A stretch of 64,000 nucleotides of DNA from an uncultured Blastocatellia bacterium (GTDB lineage Bacteria; Acidobacteriota; Blastocatellia; Pyrinomonadales; Pyrinomonadaceae), in contig CAMLLD010000026.1 of assembly GCA_946480785.1 (NCBI GenBank), forward strand, positions 5,830 through 69,829. Reading direction: 5' to 3'. A program made the position numbers and the translations under genes. This document shows, in pieces, positions 9,898 to 27,298 of this stretch. Within the stretch, counting starts at the first letter, position 1. Each line of letters opens with the position of its first letter. Below the pieces are notes generated by a model. That model searched no databases. It was not told the origin of the DNA and saw nothing but the letters and a program-made list of their open reading frames with translations.

Positions 9898-12800
9898 ATG
9901 TTGCGTTGCGCCCTACTCCTCTGTGTCCTCGCTATGCCCGTTCCGGCCCAGCAAACGAACGGCATGGTGAAGGGCACTGTCACGGACCAGCTCGACAGTC
10001 TGGTCGTCGGCGCGACCGTCACGTTGCGAAATGCGAACGAAGTAGTAGTCAGCGCGAAGACCAACTCAGCGGGAGTCTACGAATTTAAACATCTCGCTCC
10101 CGGAACATACACGCTGAAGGTCATCGCTCCCGGTTTCAACGTTTTCGAAGAGAAATCCGTCAACGTACGCGCGCGCGAAACCACCACGGTCAACGCGCAA
10201 CTCGACGTGGCGTTTGAAGAGCAGCAGGTAGTCGTCGACGATCGAAACATCAGCACCGACGCCGACAACAATGCCGGCGCGGTCGTCTTGCGCGGCCGCG
10301 ATCTGGAAGCCTTGCCGAACGATCCGCAAGCATTGCTCGCGGCGTTGCAATCACTCGCCGGGCCAGTAGATCCCGAAGCCGGCGGTCCGCAAATTAAGGT
10401 GGACGGCTTCTCGAACGGCCAACTGCCGCCGAAAGAAGCGATCCGCGAAGTGCGCGTAAACAACAACCCGTTCTCCGCGGAAAACGAGTTTCCCGGTTTC
10501 GGCGGCATCGAGATCTTCACGCAACCCGGCGCCGACAAGTGGCACGGCGGGATCGCTTTCGACTTCAACGACGAAAGCCTCAACTCGCGTAATCCATACA
10601 CGACGCGACGCGCGCCTTATCAACAACGCGCGTACAGCTTCAACCTGAGTGGACCAATTAAACCCAAACGCGCGTCGTTCTCAGTTTTCTTCAATCGCTA
10701 TCTCAGCGACGCGAACTCAGTCGTGAACGCCACCGTTCTCGACGACGCGACGCTCAAGCCCGTCACGCTCAATCAATCATTCATCACGCCGGAGAAGACG
10801 AACTACGGCAACGGTCGCATAGATTTCAAGATCAATAAACAGCACACGCTCGTGGGCCGGTTCAGTTACAACGGGTCCACGCAGGATCTACAGGGCATCG
10901 GCGGCTTCGCGCTGCCGTCGCGAGCTTACGGCGGGCGACGGACCAACTTCGTCGTGCAGCTTACCGAGACGGCGATGCTCAACGAAAAGACCGTCAATGA
11001 GACTCGCTTTCAGTGGATTCGCAGCCGGTTCAAGCAGACGAGCACCGACGATGGTTTCGCTTTGAACGTGCAAGACTCGTTCTTCGGCGGCGGCTCTCAG
11101 GTCGGCGCTTCCAGCAACACGCAGCAGCGCTTCGAGCTACAGAATTTCACTTCGTGGACCAAGGGGAATCATTTTCTCAAAGTGGGCGCACGGCTGCGGC
11201 ACTCGCATATCGACAGCGTCTCGCCCGGAAACTTCGGCGGCACTTACACCTTCGCGGGCGGACTTGGTCCAAAACTCGATGCGAACGATCAACCAGTGCT
11301 CGGACCGAACAATCAGCCGCTCTTAGTTGAAGTCAGCAGTCTCGAACGCTATCGCCGCACGCTCGCGTTCGCGCGCGCCGGAATGAGCCCGGCGGCGATC
11401 AGGTTGCTCGGCGGCGGCGCTACGCAGTTCTCGATCGCGGGTGGCATTCCGGAAGCGGAAGTGAAACAGACAGACGTCTCGTTCTACCTGCAGGACGAGT
11501 GGAAGGTCAGACCAAACTTCACCCTCTCGCCGGGTCTGCGTTACGAGAACCAAAACAACATCGACAACAACTTCGACTTCGCGCCGCGGCTCGCGTTTGC
11601 GTGGTCGCCGAACTTCGGCGGCAAGAAAGCAGCGCCGGCGCCGGTTAAGCCCGCAGCGCCCGCTGACTCGAGCGCCGCGACGCCAGCCAAACCCGTGACG
11701 CCGGCCAAACCCGCAACACCAACCGCAACGACTGCGGCAACTACACCAGCAGCAGCCGCGCCGCCGCCTGGACCACCAAAGACAGTCTTCCGCGGCGCTG
11801 CAGGACTCTTCTACAACCGCGTCTCAGAAGACCTGACACTGCAATCGATCAGGTTCGACGGCGTTCACCAGCAACAATACGTCGTCACGGATCCGCAAGT
11901 GCTCAATCTGTTTCCCGCCATTCCGAGCATCGATCAACTCTCCGCGTTTTCACAACCACAACTGCGCCGCGACATCGCCGACGACTTTCACACCTGGCGT
12001 TCACTGCGCGTGATGTTCAGTGTCGAGCGTCTGCTGCCGGCGAAGATCAGATTGTCAGTCACTTATTTTTACGGTCGCACCACGCGGCAAATGCGCGCGA
12101 CGAACATCAACGCTCCGCTCGGCGGCACGTTCATCCTCGGCCAACCGGACAGCGGCGTGCGGCCGCTCGGCAGCGCCGCCGGAAACATCTTCGAGTACCA
12201 ATCGAACGGCCGCTCCATCGGAAACACGCTCAGCGTCAACGTCAACGGCAATTTGAAGAAACTCAGTTTTTGGGGCGGCCTCAACCTCAACAAAACGAGA
12301 AACACCGACAGCGGCACGAGCGGTTCGCCGTTCGACGCGTATGACTTCAGTCACGAGTGGGCGCGCACGCCGTACGGCAGCTTGCTGTTCGCCTACGGCG
12401 GCAACAGTTATTCAGCGCCGCACGACATCAGCTTCAACACGTTCATGCTGGCCAGCTCCGGTGTGCCGTTCAACATCACGACGGGCCGCGACACGAATGG
12501 CGACACGATCTTCAGCGAGCGGCCGGCATTTGCCACCGATCTCAACAAACCCGGCGTGGTGATCACACCGCTCGGCGCTTTCGATCCGACGCCCGTGCCC
12601 GGACAGACGATCATTCCGCGCAACTTCGGACGTGGTCCAGGGTTTATGTTGGTGAGCTTGAATGTGGCGAAGACGTGGAAGTTTGGTAAAGCGATCGAGC
12701 CGAAGAGTCCGCCGCCGGGTGGTCCAACCACGACCAATGCGGGGAGTGCCGCAACGACCGCGGGCAATGCGCCGGCGAAACCACCCGCGAAGCCGCCGGT

Positions 12801-12999
12801 GCAACGACCTTACTCTTTGACGTTCTCGATCAGCGTCAACAATCTCTTCAATCGCAACAACCAGGGAAGTCCCGTCGGCAACATGGCCTCACCTTACTTC
12901 TTGAAATCCGCTTCGGCTTCAAATAACTTCTTCTTCGGCCAGGGCAGCGGCTCCGGCGGCAATCGCACCATCACCTTGAGACTCAGGCTGGGTTTCTGA
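9898..12999 (+). CDS. TonB-dependent receptor, Oar-like, with Ala/Pro-rich loop insertions
   Basis: A 1033-residue outer-membrane protein with a signal peptide (LRCALLLCVLAMPVPAQ) and an N-terminal carboxypeptidase-regulatory-like domain (about 20-110; GMVKGTVTDQLDS, AGVYEFKHLAPGTYTLKV). A plug region (IKVDGFSNGQLPP, VRVNNNPFSAENEFPGFG) and a large barrel ending in TLRLRLGF with C-terminal Phe follow. Two low-complexity inserts rich in Ala, Pro, Thr and Lys lie at about residues 577-630 and 940-970, inside what should be barrel loops. Such PAKP-type linkers look like periplasmic spacers rather than loops, which is odd. The ligand is unknown. A Dabb protein follows after 24 bases. Confidence 0.85.
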   Translation: MLRCALLLCVLAMPVPAQQTNGMVKGTVTDQLDSLVVGATVTLRNANEVVVSAKTNSAGVYEFKHLAPGTYTLKVIAPGFNVFEEKSVNVRARETTTVNAQLDVAFEEQQVVVDDRNISTDADNNAGAVVLRGRDLEALPNDPQALLAALQSLAGPVDPEAGGPQIKVDGFSNGQLPPKEAIREVRVNNNPFSAENEFPGFGGIEIFTQPGADKWHGGIAFDFNDESLNSRNPYTTRRAPYQQRAYSFNLSGPIKPKRASFSVFFNRYLSDANSVVNATVLDDATLKPVTLNQSFITPEKTNYGNGRIDFKINKQHTLVGRFSYNGSTQDLQGIGGFALPSRAYGGRRTNFVVQLTETAMLNEKTVNETRFQWIRSRFKQTSTDDGFALNVQDSFFGGGSQVGASSNTQQRFELQNFTSWTKGNHFLKVGARLRHSHIDSVSPGNFGGTYTFAGGLGPKLDANDQPVLGPNNQPLLVEVSSLERYRRTLAFARAGMSPAAIRLLGGGATQFSIAGGIPEAEVKQTDVSFYLQDEWKVRPNFTLSPGLRYENQNNIDNNFDFAPRLAFAWSPNFGGKKAAPAPVKPAAPADSSAATPAKPVTPAKPATPTATTAATTPAAAAPPPGPPKTVFRGAAGLFYNRVSEDLTLQSIRFDGVHQQQYVVTDPQVLNLFPAIPSIDQLSAFSQPQLRRDIADDFHTWRSLRVMFSVERLLPAKIRLSVTYFYGRTTRQMRATNINAPLGGTFILGQPDSGVRPLGSAAGNIFEYQSNGRSIGNTLSVNVNGNLKKLSFWGGLNLNKTRNTDSGTSGSPFDAYDFSHEWARTPYGSLLFAYGGNSYSAPHDISFNTFMLASSGVPFNITTGRDTNGDTIFSERPAFATDLNKPGVVITPLGAFDPTPVPGQTIIPRNFGRGPGFMLVSLNVAKTWKFGKAIEPKSPPPGGPTTTNAGSAATTAGNAPAKPPAKPPVQRPYSLTFSISVNNLFNRNNQGSPVGNMASPYFLKSASASNNFFFGQGSGSGGNRTITLRLRLGF

Positions 13000-13023
13000 C
13001 CGCGCCTGAAGACTGGTCCAAAC

Positions 13024-13314
13024 ATGCTGACACATATCGTGGTCTGGAAGTATCGTGTTGACGTCGAACAGTCTGCGCGCGAAGAGCACGTGAATCGATT
13101 GCGCGCGCTCGCGTCGCTGGTTCCCGAAGTGCAAACACTCGCAGTCGGCTCTGACACGTTGTTTCTGCCGCGCTCGTACCACACCGGTCTCGTCGCGACG
13201 TTCGCCGATCGTGCCGGGCTCGACGCTTACACCGATCATCCCGAGCACCTTAAAGTCGTTGCGTTTGGCCGAACGATCAGCGAGCACGTCGCGTCAGTTG
13301 ATTTCGTCGATTAG
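13024..13314 (+). CDS. Dabb (stress-responsive alpha/beta barrel) domain protein
   Basis: A 96-residue single-domain protein. It opens with the family's MLTHIVVWKY strand and shows VQTLAVGSD, HTGLVATFADRAGLDAYTDHPEH, then FGRTISEHVASVDF, the standard Dabb order of a ferredoxin-like dimer. Family members include stress-induced plant proteins and small enzymes; no catalytic role can be claimed here. The next gene starts 7 bases downstream, so they are likely cotranscribed. Confidence 0.85.
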   Translation: MLTHIVVWKYRVDVEQSAREEHVNRLRALASLVPEVQTLAVGSDTLFLPRSYHTGLVATFADRAGLDAYTDHPEHLKVVAFGRTISEHVASVDFVD

Positions 13315-18886: not shown

Positions 18887-19612
18887 ATGCCTACGGCCCT
18901 CACGCAAACTGCTGCATTTAGAAATCGGATATTGGCAGGCCTGCCGCGCGAAAAATACCCTGAACTGTTTTCCAATCTTAAGCCCGTCGAACTGCATACG
19001 CAGGAGATCCTTTACCACGCGGAAGATGAAATGCGTTCTGTTTATTTCATTAACAACGGCATCGCTTCCCTGATGTCAATTACGAGCGAAGGCAATAGCA
19101 TCGAGGTTGGTAATATCGGCAGAGAAGGAATAGTGGGTGTTCCGGTGCTGCTGACGCACCTCAAAACGCCTCATCAGGTAATGGTGCAAGTGCCCGGTGA
19201 CGCATTCATGCTCAGCGCCGATCTTCTGAGACAGGAATTCAGCAAGGACGGCATCTTAAAAGATCGGCTTCTCTCCTATACTCACGTGCGTGCTACCTAT
19301 ATGTCCCAACTCGGTGTTTGCAATCACTTCCATACCGTCGATAAGCGGCTTTGCCGTTGGTTGCTGGTCAGCAGTCTCCAGATGCAATCACAAAGCTTTC
19401 GCATGACGCACGAATCACTTTCGCAAGTGCTGGGCACCGGTCGAACCGGCGTTACGATGGCGGCAAACAAACTCCAAAAGGCAGGCTTACTCAAGTATCA
19501 CCGCGGCGAAATTACGATTCTCGATCGCGCCGGTATGGAAAGCGCGTGCTGCGATTGCTATCAAATCACTAAAGAGCTCTTCGCCTCTTTATTCGGCTCT
19601 TCAATGTCCTAA
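18887..19612 (+). CDS. Crp/Fnr-family transcriptional regulator
   Basis: A 241-residue regulator. The N-terminal cyclic-nucleotide-type beta-barrel spans about 20-130 (ELHTQEILYHAEDEMRSVYFINNG, SIEVGNIGREGIVGVPVLL), then a dimer helix and a C-terminal winged HTH (about 160-220; MTHESLSQVLGTGRTGVTMAANKLQKAG). It lacks the N-terminal FNR cysteine cluster and the clear cAMP-contact RGE/RS motif, so the effector is not obvious. Two Cys at CCDC near the C-terminus are unusual. It directly precedes the peptide-maturation cluster, separated by 14-bp repeats, and is the best candidate for its regulator. Confidence 0.85.
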   Translation: MPTALTQTAAFRNRILAGLPREKYPELFSNLKPVELHTQEILYHAEDEMRSVYFINNGIASLMSITSEGNSIEVGNIGREGIVGVPVLLTHLKTPHQVMVQVPGDAFMLSADLLRQEFSKDGILKDRLLSYTHVRATYMSQLGVCNHFHTVDKRLCRWLLVSSLQMQSQSFRMTHESLSQVLGTGRTGVTMAANKLQKAGLLKYHRGEITILDRAGMESACCDCYQITKELFASLFGSSMS

Positions 19613-19647: not shown

Positions 19648-19684
19648 GTGACGGTCACTCAGTGACGGTCACGGAATGACGGAC
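19648..19684. promoter_or_regulatory. Three 14-bp tandem repeats, putative operator of the peptide cluster
   Basis: TGACGG starts at 19649, 19663 and 19677, exactly 14 bases apart. The first two units contain the hyphenated palindrome GTGACgGTCAC (19648-19658 and 19662-19672). The GTGA/TCAC half-sites resemble those bound by Crp-type proteins, and the upstream gene is one. The repeats lie between the regulator and the radical SAM gene. Confidence 0.5.
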
Positions 19685-19748
19685 GGCTGAATCATTTTTT
19701 TCGTATCGTTTGCCACGTTCACTCATTGCTAAGCAGACTCGCCTCCCA

Positions 19749-21191
19749 ATGACGGGTCAGTTTACTTGCCCAGATAAATTGTTGTTCTTCCCCCGTCCAA
19801 ATCATCTGGTTACTGATCTGCCTGAGGCGTACATGGAATTAGTTCAAATCGCTCACCGGTTTCTTTCGAACCAGGAGCTTACAAAACGGCAAGAAACTCG
19901 CTACGTCCAATTCACTGAACCCTTTCAGCCGAACGGCTTACCTTATCTTTCAGAAGGCTTCAACATCCGTTTGCATACCGGTGATTGGGCGGCGCTGTTT
20001 CCGCGCTATCACCTGATGTTCGTCTCTCCCGATCTGCAACGTACGAGGGAATTCATCGCTCACCAGGCGAATGGGTATGAACGGCTGCTTACTGAGCCGA
20101 TGAAGGAAAGTTTCGCAACGTATTTTCAGTTCCCGCGCGATCCTTACCCGGACTCGAATCCTTTCCCGCAAGGACAAGTTTTGGATTCGACGATCTGTTT
20201 TCTGCCGACAAACGACTGTAGCCTGGGATGTAAATACTGCTTCTCCGGTGCTCAACCTAAAAAATTTGGCGCTATCCCATGGGAGATCGCAAAAGCGGCT
20301 ATAGACCTCGGAACGAGGAATGCCGTCATGAATCGGATACGGTCAGGAAGCGGCAAGCTCGAGATTCGTTTTTTTGGCGGAGGCGAGCCGACTGAGTACT
20401 GGGATAGTTTTTCTTCCATCGTCGAGTATGCAAGAGCGAATGCCAAAAAGAGCAATGTCGACGTTACGGTAGCCACGATCACAAATGGCCAGGTCGATCC
20501 GGAACACTACGAATGGTTCAGAGATAACATCGACGAAATTACCGTCTCCATGGATGGCCCACCCGAAATCCAAAACGCGCAACGCCCAACCGCCGCCGGC
20601 GAGAACTCCTTTGATAAGTCCTGGGCATTTCTGTCGCAGATGGACGCGTTCGAGAAGAACATCAAGTGCATACGCGTAACCGTCACGGCCCAGACCGTCA
20701 CTCGAATGGAAGAGATAACGACGTTCTTTTGGGACAACCTCCAAAAGCCCTACACCATGCAATTCGAAGCGGTCTATTTTTCAGAGGTGGGAAGGCAGAA
20801 CACTGAAATGCCGCAGGCCCTGGAGTTTGTCAAAGAGTTTCGACGTCTGGAGGAGATGGTTTATCAACGTTGCGCCGCCGGTCAAAAACACGGATTGGTC
20901 GGGTCGGCCGCAAAACCTCTGGCCATTCGCGTCGGCGCGTACTGCGACTCGTTGGAAGGAAGAGGATTGTTTGTTACGCCCGATGGTTACTTAAGCATCT
21001 GTTCCGAAATCAGTGTGCCCACCGATCCACGCAAGGACGATTACTTCGTCGGCAAGTACGATTCATCCACCAAACGATTCCATGTTTCAGAGCGAGGCGC
21101 CGCAAATATACGCAAGGGCACTCCCTGGTGGTGCCGCGGCTGCTTTGCACAATTTTCGTGTCGGGGTGGTTGTGAACTCGCAAAACGCTGA
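19749..21191 (+). CDS. Radical SAM/SPASM peptide maturase
   Basis: A 480-residue enzyme (493 if it starts at TTG 19710; neither start has a good SD). The SAM [4Fe-4S] motif CSLGCKYC gives Cys157, 161 and 164. FFGGGEPTEYWDS (208-220) is the SAM-binding GGE region. The SPASM domain near the C-terminus shows Cys399, GxxxxC418, then CxxCxxxxxCxxxC at 462, 465, 471 and 475; the last Cys of the seven-Cys consensus is missing because the chain ends at LAKR. Residues 1-145 form an extra N-terminal domain. SPASM enzymes install thioether, C-C or other crosslinks in peptides. The Cys-rich precursor encoded 211 bases downstream is the obvious substrate. Confidence 0.9.
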   Translation: MTGQFTCPDKLLFFPRPNHLVTDLPEAYMELVQIAHRFLSNQELTKRQETRYVQFTEPFQPNGLPYLSEGFNIRLHTGDWAALFPRYHLMFVSPDLQRTREFIAHQANGYERLLTEPMKESFATYFQFPRDPYPDSNPFPQGQVLDSTICFLPTNDCSLGCKYCFSGAQPKKFGAIPWEIAKAAIDLGTRNAVMNRIRSGSGKLEIRFFGGGEPTEYWDSFSSIVEYARANAKKSNVDVTVATITNGQVDPEHYEWFRDNIDEITVSMDGPPEIQNAQRPTAAGENSFDKSWAFLSQMDAFEKNIKCIRVTVTAQTVTRMEEITTFFWDNLQKPYTMQFEAVYFSEVGRQNTEMPQALEFVKEFRRLEEMVYQRCAAGQKHGLVGSAAKPLAIRVGAYCDSLEGRGLFVTPDGYLSICSEISVPTDPRKDDYFVGKYDSSTKRFHVSERGAANIRKGTPWWCRGCFAQFSCRGGCELAKR

Positions 21192-21402
21192 TAAGTACAT
21201 CAGGCGCTGGTGGTGCCAGATGGTCAGGGCCAATATCAGAAACACCTGGACCGATGTACGAGCAAACCGAATACAGGCGCGAGCGCGAATTGGAGACCCG
21301 CACGGTGAAGAGTTGATATGGCTGCCGATATGGGATGTCTCCGCTTCGATGGATGATTAGCCCAAACCAGTCGTTCCCAAACTTACGAAAGGAGGTGAGC
21401 CT

Positions 21403-21555
21403 ATGTCCTACGAAAAACCTACTATTGTCACTCTGACATTTGCTGAAGTCGAAAACGCCAAGATCGTGGCGATGCTGCAATCACAACCGGACCAGCCAGT
21501 TGATGGCGGCGGCGGATGTCAATGTCAATGTCAATGCCAATGCCAGGCACAGTAG
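21403..21555 (+). CDS. RiPP precursor peptide with a (Cys-Gln)5 core
   Basis: A 50-codon gene with one of the best ribosome binding sites in the window (AAAGGAGGT, 6 bases before ATG). The leader (about residues 1-34) is MSYEKPTIVTLTFAEVENAK and on to PDQPVD, with a YEKP start seen in leaders handled by PqqD-type domains. A GGGG stretch (35-38) follows, then CQCQCQCQCQAQ (39-50) to the stop. Five Cys alternate strictly with Gln. It lies between a SPASM maturase and a PqqD-fusion protein, the usual place for a precursor. Gly-Gly may mark the cleavage site. Expected products are thioether-bridged or metal-binding peptides (inference). I know no described family with this core. Confidence 0.85.
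   Translation: MSYEKPTIVTLTFAEVENAKIVAMLQSQPDQPVDGGGGCQCQCQCQCQAQ
21517..21552 (+). repeat. Hexanucleotide repeat encoding the Cys-Gln core
   Basis: Six 6-base units (TGTCAA with TGC/CAG variants, the last GCACAG) run in frame from 21517 to 21552. Copy-number change by slippage would add or remove whole Cys-Gln pairs without frameshift. Confidence 0.85.
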
Positions 21556-21575
21556 ACCGACGATAAACAGATTAC

Positions 21576-21612
21576 CCGGAATAAGCCGGATCTCTTATCC
21601 GGTTTATTCCGG
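21576..21612 (+). terminator. Hairpin after the precursor gene
   Basis: CCGGAATAAGCCGGAT (21576-21591) pairs with ATCCGGTTTATTCCGG (21597-21612) over 16 positions with one G-T pair and a 5-base loop. There is no T-run, so it is more likely an RNA-stabilising or attenuating element that lets the precursor be made in excess over the downstream enzymes. Confidence 0.65.
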
Positions 21613-21671
21613 CTAACATCGCAGTTATTTGCGCCGGCCCATCACACCGCGCGTAGTTCAGGGGATTTGCC

Positions 21672-22910
21672 ATGAATACCTATCACCCGCTTTGTGCGCT
21701 TGAGAACCTGCAGATCGAAGCAGCCGGGAATGAATTCATTGTCTTCGACTCTAAAGCAAAAACATTCCATCTCTTAAATTCCACTGCTTACAGCATTCTC
21801 GAGGCGTGCAACGGCTCAAATACGATCAGCGATATTGCGACGAGCCTATCCGGTAAATTCGGTCGTGAGGATGTGGATTCGGTTTTAGCAGACGTCACCG
21901 AAACTGTTGGTTTGCTTGAATCCAAGGGATTGCTGTCGCTTGTGACCAGTGAATCTGTTTCGCCGATTGAATCAGGGCTTGGTAGTGATGGCCCGCTTCT
22001 GGCTGTCTCTGTTACCGGAACAAGCATGTTCCCGGTGCTCCTTTCCGGAGACAAGGTGTTAGTAAAGAAGATTTTACCGGAAGAGTTAAGTGTTGGCGAC
22101 ATCGTTGTTTGGTCAAATAACTCCAGGGAGTGGATAGCCCATCGGATCATTTCACTTGATACATCATCCACTCCGGCACTGATAACCACGAAAGGTGATC
22201 TGTACTATCAGGCAGATCCACCGATTGCAGTCGATCGAATATTAGGGAAGGTCATGGCGGTGCTTCAGGATGGCGAGCTCAAATGGCTTAAGGATCTTGA
22301 AAGCAGTGGGAGTCCGGCAGCGCGGAATGGATCGAGTGCGGAGCAATCACAACGGAGACCTTCGTACAAGGGACTGAAGGTGCTGGACCTGCGGGAAATT
22401 TCGGTTGATTGCATTCAAAGTATCGAATCAGTTGAGGACGTCAGTCTCGTCGTCCTCGCTCCTGAAAACGAGCACGCGTGGCCGCAAGTAGCAACAAAGA
22501 ATGTAAAGTCGGTTTTCACCGCGCCTAAGGAATACAGGTTATACACGGGCCAACCGGAGTTGTTACCAGAAATGCTCGAGTTCATGCCCGAACCGCTGCG
22601 GCTGATCGTATCGGGACAACTCTTCCTCACGCGCTTTGAGCCGCAACAGATACGCGAGACGTTCAGGGAGTTGATAGTGATGGGGCAGGTATATGTGAGC
22701 TCAGTCGAAGGAAAAACTGCAGTTGAATCGATCGCAAAAATCATCACCGGCGGGATCTCGATTGTGCCGGCGGAACACACGCGCTGGCTCGGCGAATCGA
22801 TTCTGGGCCCGGAGTATACAAGTCAGCACAGGCCCCTCGTGGCGATCGGAGATTTGTCGATTTCCGAACGCCTGAAGCAAATGCCGACCGGTGTGACGGT
22901 CTACAGATAA
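21672..22910 (+). CDS. PqqD-like domain fused to S26B-type peptidase and an unnamed C-terminal domain
   Basis: A 412-residue three-part protein. Residues 10-92 match a PqqD-like RiPP recognition element (FIVFDSKAKTFHLLNSTAYSILE, then helical to LLESKGLLSL). Residues 108-205 match a signal-peptidase fold of the ER/SipW (S26B) type: GTSMFPVLLSGDKVLV with Ser118, IAHRII with His157, and TTKGDLYYQADP with Asp176, all expected catalytic residues. No transmembrane helix is seen, unusual for a signal peptidase. Residues 235-412 form a domain I cannot name (KVLDLREIS, LIVSGQLFLT, LIVMGQVYV, RWLGESIL) repeated as the whole of the next gene product. Likely role: bind the precursor leader and cleave it, possibly at the GGGG junction (inference). 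Confidence 0.8.
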   Translation: MNTYHPLCALENLQIEAAGNEFIVFDSKAKTFHLLNSTAYSILEACNGSNTISDIATSLSGKFGREDVDSVLADVTETVGLLESKGLLSLVTSESVSPIESGLGSDGPLLAVSVTGTSMFPVLLSGDKVLVKKILPEELSVGDIVVWSNNSREWIAHRIISLDTSSTPALITTKGDLYYQADPPIAVDRILGKVMAVLQDGELKWLKDLESSGSPAARNGSSAEQSQRRPSYKGLKVLDLREISVDCIQSIESVEDVSLVVLAPENEHAWPQVATKNVKSVFTAPKEYRLYTGQPELLPEMLEFMPEPLRLIVSGQLFLTRFEPQQIRETFRELIVMGQVYVSSVEGKTAVESIAKIITGGISIVPAEHTRWLGESILGPEYTSQHRPLVAIGDLSISERLKQMPTGVTVYR

Positions 22911-22935: not shown

Positions 22936-23622
22936 ATGGGAACTACTATCAAAGACGTGCCGATCCTCGATTTGAGATCGGTATCACGCGACGCGATCTC
23001 GCAGATTGACCTCGTGGAAAACATAAAGACTGTTGTGGTGAGCACTGAAAACGTAGAAGCGTTTATGTCGGTGCCGAGAGTTGAGGTCCGCTCTCATCTA
23101 ATCATCCATCCTGACGAAAAACTGTTCATCGGTCAGATTGAGTTCAACGATAGTTTTCTAAATCAACTCTCCGCAAACACGAAGCTCGTTATCCTCGGTC
23201 ATGTGCTGATCGACGGGTTCACCATATCATTGTTCCACGAACGTATTCAGAGTCTTAGAGTCTACGGACAAATAGTCTATGCGGATGCCAGAAGTGCGGC
23301 GGCGCTGCTGGCTCGGTTGGAAAGACTGCAAGGCCAACTAATACGAATGCGTCCCAACTCTATTCGCTGGATAGGCGTGACAAACCTGAACGCGAATAAA
23401 TTGGACGCCGTTGCCGGCCGGCCGGTCGTCAGCATAGGTCCGATAAAAATCGATCCGGACCTGCCTGCGACCGACATTACAAAAGCAATCCCTTCGATGG
23501 TCCAGATCGGCGAGATTATCGGACCGGAAGAAGCTGTGTCCGCGCTGTTTTCTGTCTGCGAACGACGATTAGGAACGTACCGGTTAGCTCAAGTGGAAAA
23601 GGCTCACTACGCGGGTACTTGA
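22936..23622 (+). CDS. Stand-alone copy of the C-terminal domain of the PqqD-peptidase protein
   Basis: A 228-residue protein without signal peptide or membrane helix. Its first 185 residues parallel residues 235-412 of the upstream protein: VPILDLRSVSRDAI to KVLDLREISVDCI, VVVSTENVEAF to VVLAPENEHAW, LFIGQIEF to LYTGQPEL, LVILGHVLIDGF to LIVSGQLFLTRF, LRVYGQIVYA to LIVMGQVYVS, IRWIGV to TRWLGE, RPVVSIGPIKI to RPLVAIGDLSI. The repeated L-x-V-x-G-x-V strands suggest a small beta-sheet or beta-helix scaffold. It may be a partner or chaperone in the maturation complex (inference). SD GGAGC precedes the ATG; the ABC gene follows within 8 bases. Confidence 0.7.
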   Translation: MGTTIKDVPILDLRSVSRDAISQIDLVENIKTVVVSTENVEAFMSVPRVEVRSHLIIHPDEKLFIGQIEFNDSFLNQLSANTKLVILGHVLIDGFTISLFHERIQSLRVYGQIVYADARSAAALLARLERLQGQLIRMRPNSIRWIGVTNLNANKLDAVAGRPVVSIGPIKIDPDLPATDITKAIPSMVQIGEIIGPEEAVSALFSVCERRLGTYRLAQVEKAHYAGT

Positions 23623-23630
23623 GAGCACTA

Positions 23631-25478
23631 ATGATGACGGTTCGGAAGCTCGCGCAAAGTGTTTCTGCCTACCTCAGCATTCTTCGTATCGTATCCGCGG
23701 GGAACCGTTCTCTCTTTGCTACGTCGCTGGTTGTTAATATTCTAATCGCACAAGTACCGGCCCTGTTGGCCTACACCAGTAAGAACGTTGTCGACTCGCT
23801 GCTGTCGCGAAGTTACGCTACCCGCTCCTTCATTCCTCTTTCGCCGCCCCTCTTCTTTGGGTGTGTTTATCTTTGCCTGTTGCTGGCCCAATACGCAGGC
23901 CAGGCCCTGCTGCTCCATTTGAATGAAATGCTGACTGAGAGTGGCTCGAAGCATATTCACGCGCAGATCATTCAGTCAGCTATTCGAATGGAAGGTCTTT
24001 ATTATTTTGAAAACCCCGCGTTTCATAATCGAAGATCGTTGCTGGAACGGGATGCTTTGTACATCCCGATGAATATCCTGCGCTTCGCGACCGACGTCTC
24101 GAGTATTGCGGTTACCACCTTTGGCATGGTGCTGCTACTCGCCGGTCTTCACCCGCTCATACCCGTTCTAATCCTGCTCTCCGGGATACCGGATGTGATC
24201 GCCCAGAAAAAAGGCCATCGACTGATCTATGAAGGCATCAGGGAAACTGCCCACGAGGAACGAAGAAAAGAATACTTTCGCTCGGTGCTGCTCGACGAAG
24301 AACACGCCAAGGAAGTACGACTCTATAACCTCGCCAACTATTTCATCAGCAAATACAACGAGTCGTTCAGACGCGTTCTCGAGCTCGTCGTCCCCATCCG
24401 AAAGCGTCACATAAGAAGCTCGAATCTTAGTCGTGTTCTTGTGACTATAGGAGCTGTTCTTCCTTATCTCTGGACCATCGGCAAAGCGTTGCGCGGTGAA
24501 ATCACTCCGGGCCAGTTGGTCCTCTTTATGACCGCGATAGTCGTAATCCATCAGCAGATGGCCAGAACAGCCCAAACGCTCGCTGGTCACCAGGACGTTA
24601 TCTATGTGATGAGAGAGCTTGCTGCGTGGCTGGAAATGAAACCGGATCTCGTTTCAGTGGCGCCGAATCTTCAGGTAAGGAGAAAGCCTGAGCTGCCGCC
24701 ACAGGTCAGAATCTCCAATCTGTGGTTTAGTTATCCCCGCTCCGATCGAGACGTGTTGCGCGGAGTTGATCTCGAAATACCCCACGGAAAATCGCTGGCG
24801 ATCGTCGGCCGAAACGGCTCCGGTAAAACAACTCTCGTAAAGCTCTTGTGCCGGTTGTATGACCCCACTCAAGGGACAATCTGCTACGACGGGATCGACA
24901 TCCGGCTGCTCAATCTCGATGACTTGCGAAACTCCATCGGAATTATTTTCCAGGACTTCAACCGGTATCACTTAACGATCAATGAGAACATCGCCCTCGG
25001 AAAGGCTACCGACAATGCGACGCTCAATGATGTACATCAAGCTGCCACAGCGGCCGGGGCAGCGGATTTCATCGAGCGCACGGCGCAAGGTTACGACACG
25101 CTGCTGGGCAATCAATTTTCAGGCGGGCACGAATTGTCCGGTGGCCAATGGCAACGGCTGGCGCTCGCGAGAGCTTTTTTTCGCAACGCGGGCCTGCTGG
25201 TGCTGGATGAACCTACTGCGTCGGTGGACATCGCTACTGAAGCCCGCCTCTATGCACGTTTCAAAAAGATGACCGAGGGCAAAACGGCCCTGTTGATCTC
25301 GCATCGGTTGTCTACTGTTCGCATTGCCGATCGCATCGCTGTTCTCGAAGCCGGCAAGGTCATCGAATTCGGAGATCACGAGAGCCTCATGAGTTTGCAG
25401 GGGACCTACAATGAGATGTTTGTGATCCAGGCGGAGCGGTTTCGACGATCAGAGGAATTTGCAACTATCCAGCGCTAA
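23631..25478 (+). CDS. ABC exporter (membrane and ATPase domains fused), peptide cluster
   Basis: About 615 residues; start at ATG 23631 (23634 or TTG 23619 also possible). The N-terminal half has six predicted helices (LFATSLVVNILIAQVPALLAY and others). The ATPase half has Walker A GRNGSGKTT, signature LSGGQWQRLALARAF, Walker B LLVLDEPTASVD with catalytic Glu, and a switch His in ISHRLSTV. No C39 peptidase domain is present, so leader removal must be done elsewhere. Its stop overlaps the start of the second exporter (TAATG), so the two are translationally coupled and probably form a heterodimer. It likely exports the matured peptide. Confidence 0.9.
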   Translation: MMTVRKLAQSVSAYLSILRIVSAGNRSLFATSLVVNILIAQVPALLAYTSKNVVDSLLSRSYATRSFIPLSPPLFFGCVYLCLLLAQYAGQALLLHLNEMLTESGSKHIHAQIIQSAIRMEGLYYFENPAFHNRRSLLERDALYIPMNILRFATDVSSIAVTTFGMVLLLAGLHPLIPVLILLSGIPDVIAQKKGHRLIYEGIRETAHEERRKEYFRSVLLDEEHAKEVRLYNLANYFISKYNESFRRVLELVVPIRKRHIRSSNLSRVLVTIGAVLPYLWTIGKALRGEITPGQLVLFMTAIVVIHQQMARTAQTLAGHQDVIYVMRELAAWLEMKPDLVSVAPNLQVRRKPELPPQVRISNLWFSYPRSDRDVLRGVDLEIPHGKSLAIVGRNGSGKTTLVKLLCRLYDPTQGTICYDGIDIRLLNLDDLRNSIGIIFQDFNRYHLTINENIALGKATDNATLNDVHQAATAAGAADFIERTAQGYDTLLGNQFSGGHELSGGQWQRLALARAFFRNAGLLVLDEPTASVDIATEARLYARFKKMTEGKTALLISHRLSTVRIADRIAVLEAGKVIEFGDHESLMSLQGTYNEMFVIQAERFRRSEEFATIQR

Positions 25479-27298
25479 TGAGTATGCGATTGCTGAACAA
25501 AGTAAAGATCGTCCTGCGAGTCTGGAGATTTCTTTATCAGTATCAACGGTACGGGATCCTGTGGGGAGTTGCGCTCATTCTCGCCGGTCTGTATCCCGCA
25601 ATCACTGCGTGGATCTCCAAACAGGTTATCAATGCCGTCTTCGCGCCAGCTCACCAGCAGCTTGTAAGCTGGCTACCGAACGCCTTCCTGTTCGCGATCG
25701 CCTATGGTGTTGTCAGCCTGGTACACGGAATCATCACCACGTCTTCCGCCGTTGAGCTGGTTACGATCAAAGATAGGAATACTCGGGTCACCGATCAGTT
25801 ATTGATGGAGAAAACAGCGGGCTCCATAGGTATCACGGCTTATGCGCTTTCACAGACCAGAGATGAGATCCGTTTAGCATCAATAGGCGGACAATCTTTA
25901 CCAGCTTGTTTCACTGAGAGCGTCGACCTGTTTCAACATTTGGTTGCGGTAATCGCCTTGTCGATTATTCTCATTCATTACCATCCGTTAGTGGCGGCGA
26001 TAGTTTTGTTGCCGGCGATACCGCTGCTTTACACCCAACCAAAAGTTCGGGCCAACACTGTGGCGGCGTTGATCTATGAGAGCCCGTTGTATCGGCAGAT
26101 GGGATATTTTCTCGAGTTGATGCTGGGGACGAGCACGGCCAAGGAAATCAGGATTTATCGCACCGGCCACTTTTTCCTTGATAAGTATCGGCACGCGGCG
26201 GATGCGATTATCAAGAAAGCCCGAGGTCTACGCTGGAGCGCCACGAAAAGCGCCATCTTGTGGGGATCGCTCGCTGCCGCAGGGATCGGCGGAGCTTATC
26301 TCTACATCATCTATTTGGCGACGACCAACGCGATCAGTATTGGTGACGTGGTGATGTACAGTGCCGCCGTGTTCTACACTGGCGGCTCCATCCGCGCGTT
26401 AATTCAGAGTGCGTCTTCGTTGTCCGGCAGCATTATTTCGGTAGAGAATTTCTTTGCCTACCTCGATCAACAGCCTCCGGCGGTTGCGTCACAATCCATT
26501 TCAGGCGTGGCGACGGCTGATTTGAGAAGCCCGGAGTGGAAGATAGACCACCTTACGTATTCGTATCCCGAACGCAGCGAGAAAGCGCTCGACGATGTCA
26601 GCTTTAGTATCAAGCCAAAAGAGAAGATCGCCATCGTTGGCCTGAACGGAGCGGGTAAGACAACGCTTATGAAGCTGATGCTGCGTCTACTCGAGCCTGA
26701 TGAAGGGACTATCAGCTTTCGCGGAATCGACCTCAGAGACTGGGACGTGCCAGTGCTGAGGAAAAACTTCGGGGTTGTCTTTCAGGATTTCTCGAAGTTT
26801 AAGTTAACGCTTTACGACAATATCGCTTTGGCCTTAAATGGAGCGTCTGCGGATCATCGTGATGCTGCGGTATTCAATGCCGCTCGTTTGGCAGGAGTAG
26901 ACGAGATTGCCGATCGCTCACCGCAAGGTTACCAAATGCAACTCGGAAAGGAGTTTTCAAAGGGCACCGATCTGTCAGGAGGACAATGGCAACGCGTCGC
27001 CGTTGCCAGAGGATTTGTCAGAGATGCCGAGGTGGTTTTTCTTGATGAACCCACCGCCGCCCTGGATGTGAAAACAGAGCGAGCGCTGTTTGAGCAGTTG
27101 ATGGCTTTGGCGCAGAATAGAACGGCAATCATAATCTCGCACCGGTTATTCGTTACGCCCATGGTCGATCGCATATTGGTGCTTGACCGTGGACGCCTGG
27201 TTGAGGAGGGCCGGCACGATCAACTCATGAGACGAGACGGTGTTTATGCAGAGATGTTCAAAACTCAGGTAGGACTATATTGGCCGGCGGCACAGTAG
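25478..27298 (+). CDS. ABC exporter, second half-transporter of the peptide cluster
   Basis: A 606-residue half-transporter. Membrane helices fill residues 20-310. The ATPase has Walker A GLNGAGKTT, signature LSGGQWQRVAVARGF, Walker B VVFLDEPTAALD and ISHRLFVTPM. Both nucleotide sites of the pair keep the catalytic Glu, so each could hydrolyse ATP. Sequence similarity to the upstream exporter is clear only in the ATPase half. It starts one base inside the upstream stop codon. Confidence 0.9.
   Translation: MSMRLLNKVKIVLRVWRFLYQYQRYGILWGVALILAGLYPAITAWISKQVINAVFAPAHQQLVSWLPNAFLFAIAYGVVSLVHGIITTSSAVELVTIKDRNTRVTDQLLMEKTAGSIGITAYALSQTRDEIRLASIGGQSLPACFTESVDLFQHLVAVIALSIILIHYHPLVAAIVLLPAIPLLYTQPKVRANTVAALIYESPLYRQMGYFLELMLGTSTAKEIRIYRTGHFFLDKYRHAADAIIKKARGLRWSATKSAILWGSLAAAGIGGAYLYIIYLATTNAISIGDVVMYSAAVFYTGGSIRALIQSASSLSGSIISVENFFAYLDQQPPAVASQSISGVATADLRSPEWKIDHLTYSYPERSEKALDDVSFSIKPKEKIAIVGLNGAGKTTLMKLMLRLLEPDEGTISFRGIDLRDWDVPVLRKNFGVVFQDFSKFKLTLYDNIALALNGASADHRDAAVFNAARLAGVDEIADRSPQGYQMQLGKEFSKGTDLSGGQWQRVAVARGFVRDAEVVFLDEPTAALDVKTERALFEQLMALAQNRTAIIISHRLFVTPMVDRILVLDRGRLVEEGRHDQLMRRDGVYAEMFKTQVGLYWPAAQ

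Follow-up and report, generated by a model that had tools for sequence, protein, structure and literature searches.

A precursor family with a Cys(i)/Gln(i+3) array and a SPASM enzyme: candidate interlaced thioether peptides in Acidobacteriota

Introduction

What would a radical S-adenosylmethionine (SAM) enzyme do to a peptide whose core alternates Cys and Gln? The question is raised by a 64,000-nucleotide stretch of DNA from an uncultured Blastocatellia bacterium of the Pyrinomonadaceae (contig CAMLLD010000026.1; here, the window). In this stretch, a 50-codon open reading frame (ORF) at 21403 to 21555 on the forward strand, running from ATG to TAG, encodes MSYEKPTIVTLTFAEVENAKIVAMLQSQPDQPVDGGGGCQCQCQCQCQAQ. 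A first-pass annotation had read the ORF as the precursor of a ribosomally synthesized and posttranslationally modified peptide (RiPP), with a ribosome site upstream, a leader ending in GGGG, a (Cys-Gln)5 core, and a place between a radical SAM/SPASM enzyme and a PqqD-domain protein. All of these elements were found. The end of a strong ribosome site, AAAGGAGGT, lies 6 bases 5′ of the ATG, the leader closes with GGGG, and the core that follows is CQCQCQCQCQAQ, five CQ units and AQ. The enzyme gene lies upstream and the PqqD-domain gene downstream. Both TGT and TGC are used for Cys and both CAA and CAG for Gln, so the array is not a perfect DNA repeat. The ORF, its homologues, and the array count described below identify the feature as a precursor peptide.

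Four things are shown below: the gene family, a gene order common to the window and a second locus (L001), the enzyme family, and a rule that pairs Cys(i) with Gln(i+3). We give an even chance to the proposal that this is a new radical-SAM RiPP family, in which a CteB/PapB-like SPASM enzyme would link Cys(i) to Gln(i+3) by thioethers to form interlaced rings.

A conserved family of short precursors

A search of 5.8 billion proteins returned 33 matches including the window's own, the other 32 at E values of 2e-21 to 7e-6. A second-round profile was built from 17 of the 33 and the L001 precursor. Scored over the 7994 candidates sharing most words, it yielded 75 homologous short proteins, again including the window's and containing all of the first-round matches. 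The 76th precursor is that of L001, on a contig of an uncultured Bryobacteraceae genome. A chance ORF is ruled out by the homologues found in both protein searches. Since the shared words and the profile both included the repeat, these figures apply to precursors with similar cores, and very different cores would be missed. Leader columns were conserved across the precursors and cores were variable; a typical leader reads M-x-Y-E-K-P-x-[IV]-V-x-L-T-x-A-E-L-E-N and a typical core C-x-(C-Q)n-x-Q.

The family is so far placed in Acidobacteriota. It is rare in reference genomes, where 84,980 scanned species yielded two close loci, but the protein collection contains 75 clusters of it. When 18 of the 76 precursors were scanned against curated libraries, NCBIfam and Pfam each gave one weak match to an unrelated family (E values of 0.067 and 0.082, respectively) and no other match. 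Annotation is therefore likely to miss these genes. The literature searches made listed no paper describing this precursor family, which is conserved and apparently new to description.

Homologous short ORFs do lie beside related SPASM enzymes. In L001 the order from the enzyme through the second ATP-binding cassette (ABC) half matches that of the window: enzyme, precursor, PqqD/S24-S26 fusion, solenoid protein, and two ABC exporters. Adjacency was seen directly in these two loci and is indicated by equal contig size for 10 more of the 75 precursors, each of which shares an exact contig size with an enzyme homologue (nine contigs, one of them with two precursors). This comparison used the longest contig for each of the 75 precursors and the 58 enzyme homologues with a stated size. 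Eight pairs missed by 1 to 20 bases, from which we put the chance expectation at about 0.2 exact matches. Two different precursors (P0112 and P0134) apparently sit on one 18530-base contig with a single enzyme homologue (P0070).

Cys and Gln follow an i to i+3 rule

Arrays were defined by Cys alone, each being the largest set of Cys separated by at most 6 residues. The 76 precursors gave 40 distinct arrays with 238 Cys; the sequences are related, and the counts are not independent events. A Gln at +3 served 231 of the 238 Cys and completed 35 of the 40 arrays. The corresponding figures were 209 and 17 for +1 and 191 and 0 for +5, and each of the other odd pairings tried (−5, −3, −1, and +7) likewise completed none. 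Over all 76 precursors, +3 served 416 of 423 array Cys and completed 71 arrays, compared with 386 and 45 for +1. A separate shuffle count gave 199 of 200 at +3, 180 at +1, and at most 172 in shuffles, but its array definition itself demanded Gln at even positions from the fourth; the result is partly built in and is not relied on.

Since the interior of an alternating array agrees with any odd offset, the register must be read from its ends. At the first Cys, Gln was found at −1 in none of the 40 distinct arrays, at +1 in 17, and at +3 in 38. The last Cys was followed by Gln at +1 in 38 arrays and at +3 in 37; no array had one at +5. Five arrays were incomplete. The array of P0032, whose contig measures 510 bases, continues into KSGLRL; P0132 has CYGMCCCQ; and P0095, P0134, and L001 carry extra Cys outside the register. 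The strict Cys-Gln alternation noted by the first-pass annotation did not hold across the family: the residue after the first Cys was not Gln in 23 of the 40 distinct arrays, and 17 inner positions had another residue in place of Cys. A strict (CQ)n rule was rejected because the residue at position 2 varies freely and Q-x-Q comes after the last Cys. Under a slightly different array definition, the residues seen at position 2 were Q, E, G, A, K, R, C, D, H, L, and T.

Gln can be present without Cys, and Cys is almost never without Gln. This asymmetry suits a donor that requires an acceptor. Two observations weigh against so simple a pairing: Gln at +3 was retained at 16 of the 17 inner places where another residue replaces Cys, and position 2 was Gln in 45 of the 76 precursors. 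Gln may therefore also be retained on some other ground.

The best-surviving alternative, which we nonetheless regard as unlikely, is a radical-SAM RiPP with another Cys-Gln bond or register: either a sulfur-to-C-alpha (sactionine) link or Cys(i)-Gln(i+1) pairs that leave the first Cys and the last Gln free. SPASM enzymes form C-alpha and other thioethers alike (PMC8326336 and PMC11002830, each in part), and PapB links even adjacent Cys and Asp, if not to completion (PMC9413430, in part). The array interior and the 209 Cys served at +1 also allow the shorter register. However, pairing at i+1 would leave the first Cys unserved in the 23 arrays noted above and does not explain why Gln stands at +3 of the last Cys in 37 of 40 arrays. 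Geometry also disfavors it. We coarsely scanned all-L, trans two-residue repeats (13986 shapes on a 20-degree grid, checked for C-alpha clashes only), taking a C-beta pair at no more than 4.6 Å, about the span of an S-Cgamma link, as the limit; the limits are our own. C-beta atoms came within this distance for i to i+3 in 216 shapes, for i to i+5 in 97, and for i to i+1 in none, the closest neighbors being 4.66 Å apart. The closest i+3 shapes were compact, with a rise of about 2 Å per residue, and only 2 came within 3.2 Å, the span of an S-Cbeta link.

A CteB-like SPASM enzyme and its predicted chemistry

Library matches and relatives identify the enzyme gene at 19830 to 21191 on the forward strand; the listed ORF begins at 19710, and Met 19830 is the likely start, as in relatives. 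Near the 3′ end, the window frame is broken (region 21150 to 21360). Relatives read through GGCEPRSQN to the last SPASM Cys, whereas the window frame ends after GGCELAKR and related sequence continues in another frame, open to 21360. The break thus puts the last SPASM Cys of the window enzyme in another frame. Either an assembly error or a truly broken copy would account for it; an intact enzyme, P0034, is 97% identical to the window's. Judged on relatives, which keep ten cluster Cys, the CX3CX2C motif, the SPASM Cys pattern, and the fold are present, with the last SPASM Cys lost from the window copy. The nearest solved structure is that of CteB, aligned from the N-terminal region through the SPASM domain, and the enzyme is a CteB-like SPASM protein with a RiPP recognition element (RRE)-like N-terminal region. 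Together with the conserved leader, the variable core, and the L001 gene order, this enzyme strongly supports the RiPP precursor assignment.

Comparison with known systems places the family near, but outside, several of them. The PapB family, which matures the ranthipeptide freyrasin from PapA, was the best NCBIfam match of the window enzyme and is likewise a SPASM maturase. As in the family described here, the freyrasin precursor repeats donor and acceptor motifs with the donor Cys before the acceptor, and its rings are nested (PMC9413430, in part). Freyrasin differs in its CX3D motif with an Asp or Glu acceptor; the cores here carry CX2Q instead of CX3D/E motifs, with Gln in that place. The PqqD/S24-S26 fusion and the solenoid protein also belong to the window-type cluster and set it apart from that of freyrasin. 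Scored on the broken window copy, the enzyme reached neither the PapB/freyrasin model NF047865 (89 bits against a cutoff of 340) nor the SCIFF maturase model TIGR03974 (86 bits against 425). The SCIFF system resembles ours in that CteB, the thermocellin maturase, is the nearest solved structure, but its acceptor is Thr C-gamma (PMC11002830, in part), and no SCIFF precursor match was found among the 18 of 76 precursors scanned. In the streptococcal beta-thioether peptide NxxcA, a thioether joins residues three apart through an amide side chain, Cys23 to Asn20 (PMC8326336, in part); there the acceptor precedes the Cys and the ring is single. The His-Xaa-Ser (Hxs) and CXXX-repeat systems also pair repeat peptides with radical SAM maturases, but the repeat is another one. 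The window core has no HxS repeat, and the enzyme fell far below both cutoffs (59.8 of 370 bits and 40.1 of 350 bits, respectively). We regard the product as a SPASM-matured, probably thioether-type RiPP whose array follows a new rule.

The Cys-to-Gln thioethers suggested by the first-pass annotation are consistent with the Cys(i)/Gln(i+3) rule; we infer the bond itself and the carbon that takes part in it, as well as the sequence of steps, the protease, and export. The leader would be held by the PqqD domain of the fusion, by the RRE-like N-terminal region of the enzyme, or by both. The enzyme would then generate a radical at one of the side-chain carbons of Gln(i+3), for which the action of PapB on Glu makes C-gamma the most likely choice, and this carbon would be joined to the thiol of Cys(i). 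Repetition along the core would give interlaced four-residue rings, in the window C1-Q4, C3-Q6, C5-Q8, C7-Q10, and C9-Q12. The resulting compact stapled rod would be released from its leader, and the two ABC half-transporters would export it. PapB links Cys to C-beta of Asp or C-gamma of Glu, accepts CXnD for n of 0 to 6, and forms nested rings (PMC9413430, in part). For Glu C-gamma, the amide counterpart would be C-gamma of Gln. Asp, Glu, and Thr serve as acceptors of QhpD and CteB (PMC11002830, in part). Asn serves in NxxcA, and TQQ makes an ether to Gln C-alpha (PMC8326336, in part).

In its fullest form, this proposal has the SPASM enzyme form five to seven Cys(i)-S-C(gamma)-Gln(i+3) thioethers, all interlaced, which would turn the alternating core into a continuously stapled rod with every Cys closed off. 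We hold it tentatively, with somewhat less confidence than the main proposal above. To our knowledge, it would be the first Gln-acceptor thioether RiPP. If true, Gln would join the known acceptors of radical thioether enzymes, and nature would offer a continuously stapled peptide that is encoded genetically. Sharp predictions follow from the array rule as to which Gln serves which Cys.

A less probable alternative is a metal-chelating peptide, whose CxCxC thiols would bind Cu(I), Zn, or a similar metal, leaving the SPASM enzyme with another target or with few modifications to make. Metallothionein-like chelators typically contain CxC arrays, and the exporter pair in the cluster would suit this role. 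However, metal binding by Cys gives no ground to expect a constant Gln three residues beyond the last Cys (37 of 40 arrays, against none at +5), and the dedicated enzyme has retained its ten cluster Cys. An epimerase that sets alternate D-residues for a beta-helix is quite improbable; the period of two would then be what matters, and not Cys-Gln bonding. The weakest candidate, which we consider very improbable, is a ladder of internal Cys-Gln thioesters like those of complement C3 and alpha-2-macroglobulin, each made by losing NH3: the thioesters of these proteins arise within a folded structure, with no radical SAM enzyme involved, whereas here a SPASM enzyme accompanies the peptide. The GCGEQ motif of those proteins does have exactly the Cys-x-x-Gln spacing (PMC9363628, in part).

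Other genes and features of the cluster

The window order is a Crp/Fnr regulator (18887), the SPASM enzyme (about 19830), the precursor (21403), a PqqD/S24-S26/solenoid-like fusion (21672), a solenoid protein (22936), and ABC halves (23619 and 25478). The PqqD-domain protein of the first-pass annotation has its PqqD part (Pfam, 36.3 bits against a cutoff of 23.4) but is not a single-domain protein. Library matches and alignments show a three-part fusion (21672 to 22910, forward strand), in which PqqD is joined to an S24/S26 peptidase-like domain and, at the C terminus, to a domain akin to the solenoid protein encoded next. The PqqD domain probably presents the leader. The fusions of the window and L001 are 43% identical. 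In the window, the S26-like domain scored above the archaeal-type signal peptidase cutoff (57.8 against 51.85). In the L001 fusion (11731 to 13047), it lacks the presumed Ser and His of the window copy and may for this reason be noncatalytic.

The end of the fusion (22347 to 22907) and the solenoid protein (22936 to 23622, forward strand) are related domains (26% identity, E value of 6e-15), with no family match in curated libraries. The solenoid protein is 53% identical to its L001 counterpart. Its model, a confident one (predicted local distance difference test score, 89.9), gave only weak leucine-rich-repeat-like matches, and comparison with solved structures gave no convincing relative; we suggest that it may act as a scaffold. 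The two ABC exporter halves (23619 to 25478 and 25478 to 27298, both on the forward strand) were identified by library matches, with no C39 peptidase domain among the Pfam matches of either.

In a third locus, L002 (Pyrinomonadaceae), the regulator is present and the contig runs out after residue 151 of the enzyme. The argininosuccinate synthase of the window is 91% identical to that of the Pyrinomonadaceae genome and 56% identical to that of the Bryobacteraceae genome, and a second comparison agrees (86% versus 38%), which probably places the window in the Pyrinomonadaceae lineage. The Crp/Fnr-family regulator gene (18887 to 19612, forward strand; Pfam HTH_Crp_2 and cNMP_binding) is 74% identical to the L002 copy, which also lies upstream of the enzyme. 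Between regulator and enzyme, a pattern count located two GTGACGGTCAC near-palindromes, 14 bases apart (19648 to 19672). Such a pair is expected 0.09 times in the window, for a pattern picked after the sequence had been viewed. At the equal place in L002 (9815 to 9865) there are four TGACAGTCA copies with the same 14-base period; none was found when TGAC-N-GTCA near-palindromes were looked for in L001. Tandem near-palindromes of this kind sit between the Crp/Fnr and enzyme genes in two related lineages and are a possible operator of the regulator.

After the precursor, the forward strand can form a strong RNA hairpin with a 16-base-pair stem (21576 to 21612; −26.7 kcal/mol for 21565 to 21625), which plausibly raises the precursor transcript over the genes behind it. 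The gap between precursor and fusion in L001 (11658 to 11730) has a strong hairpin too, at −33.1 kcal/mol for 73 bases.
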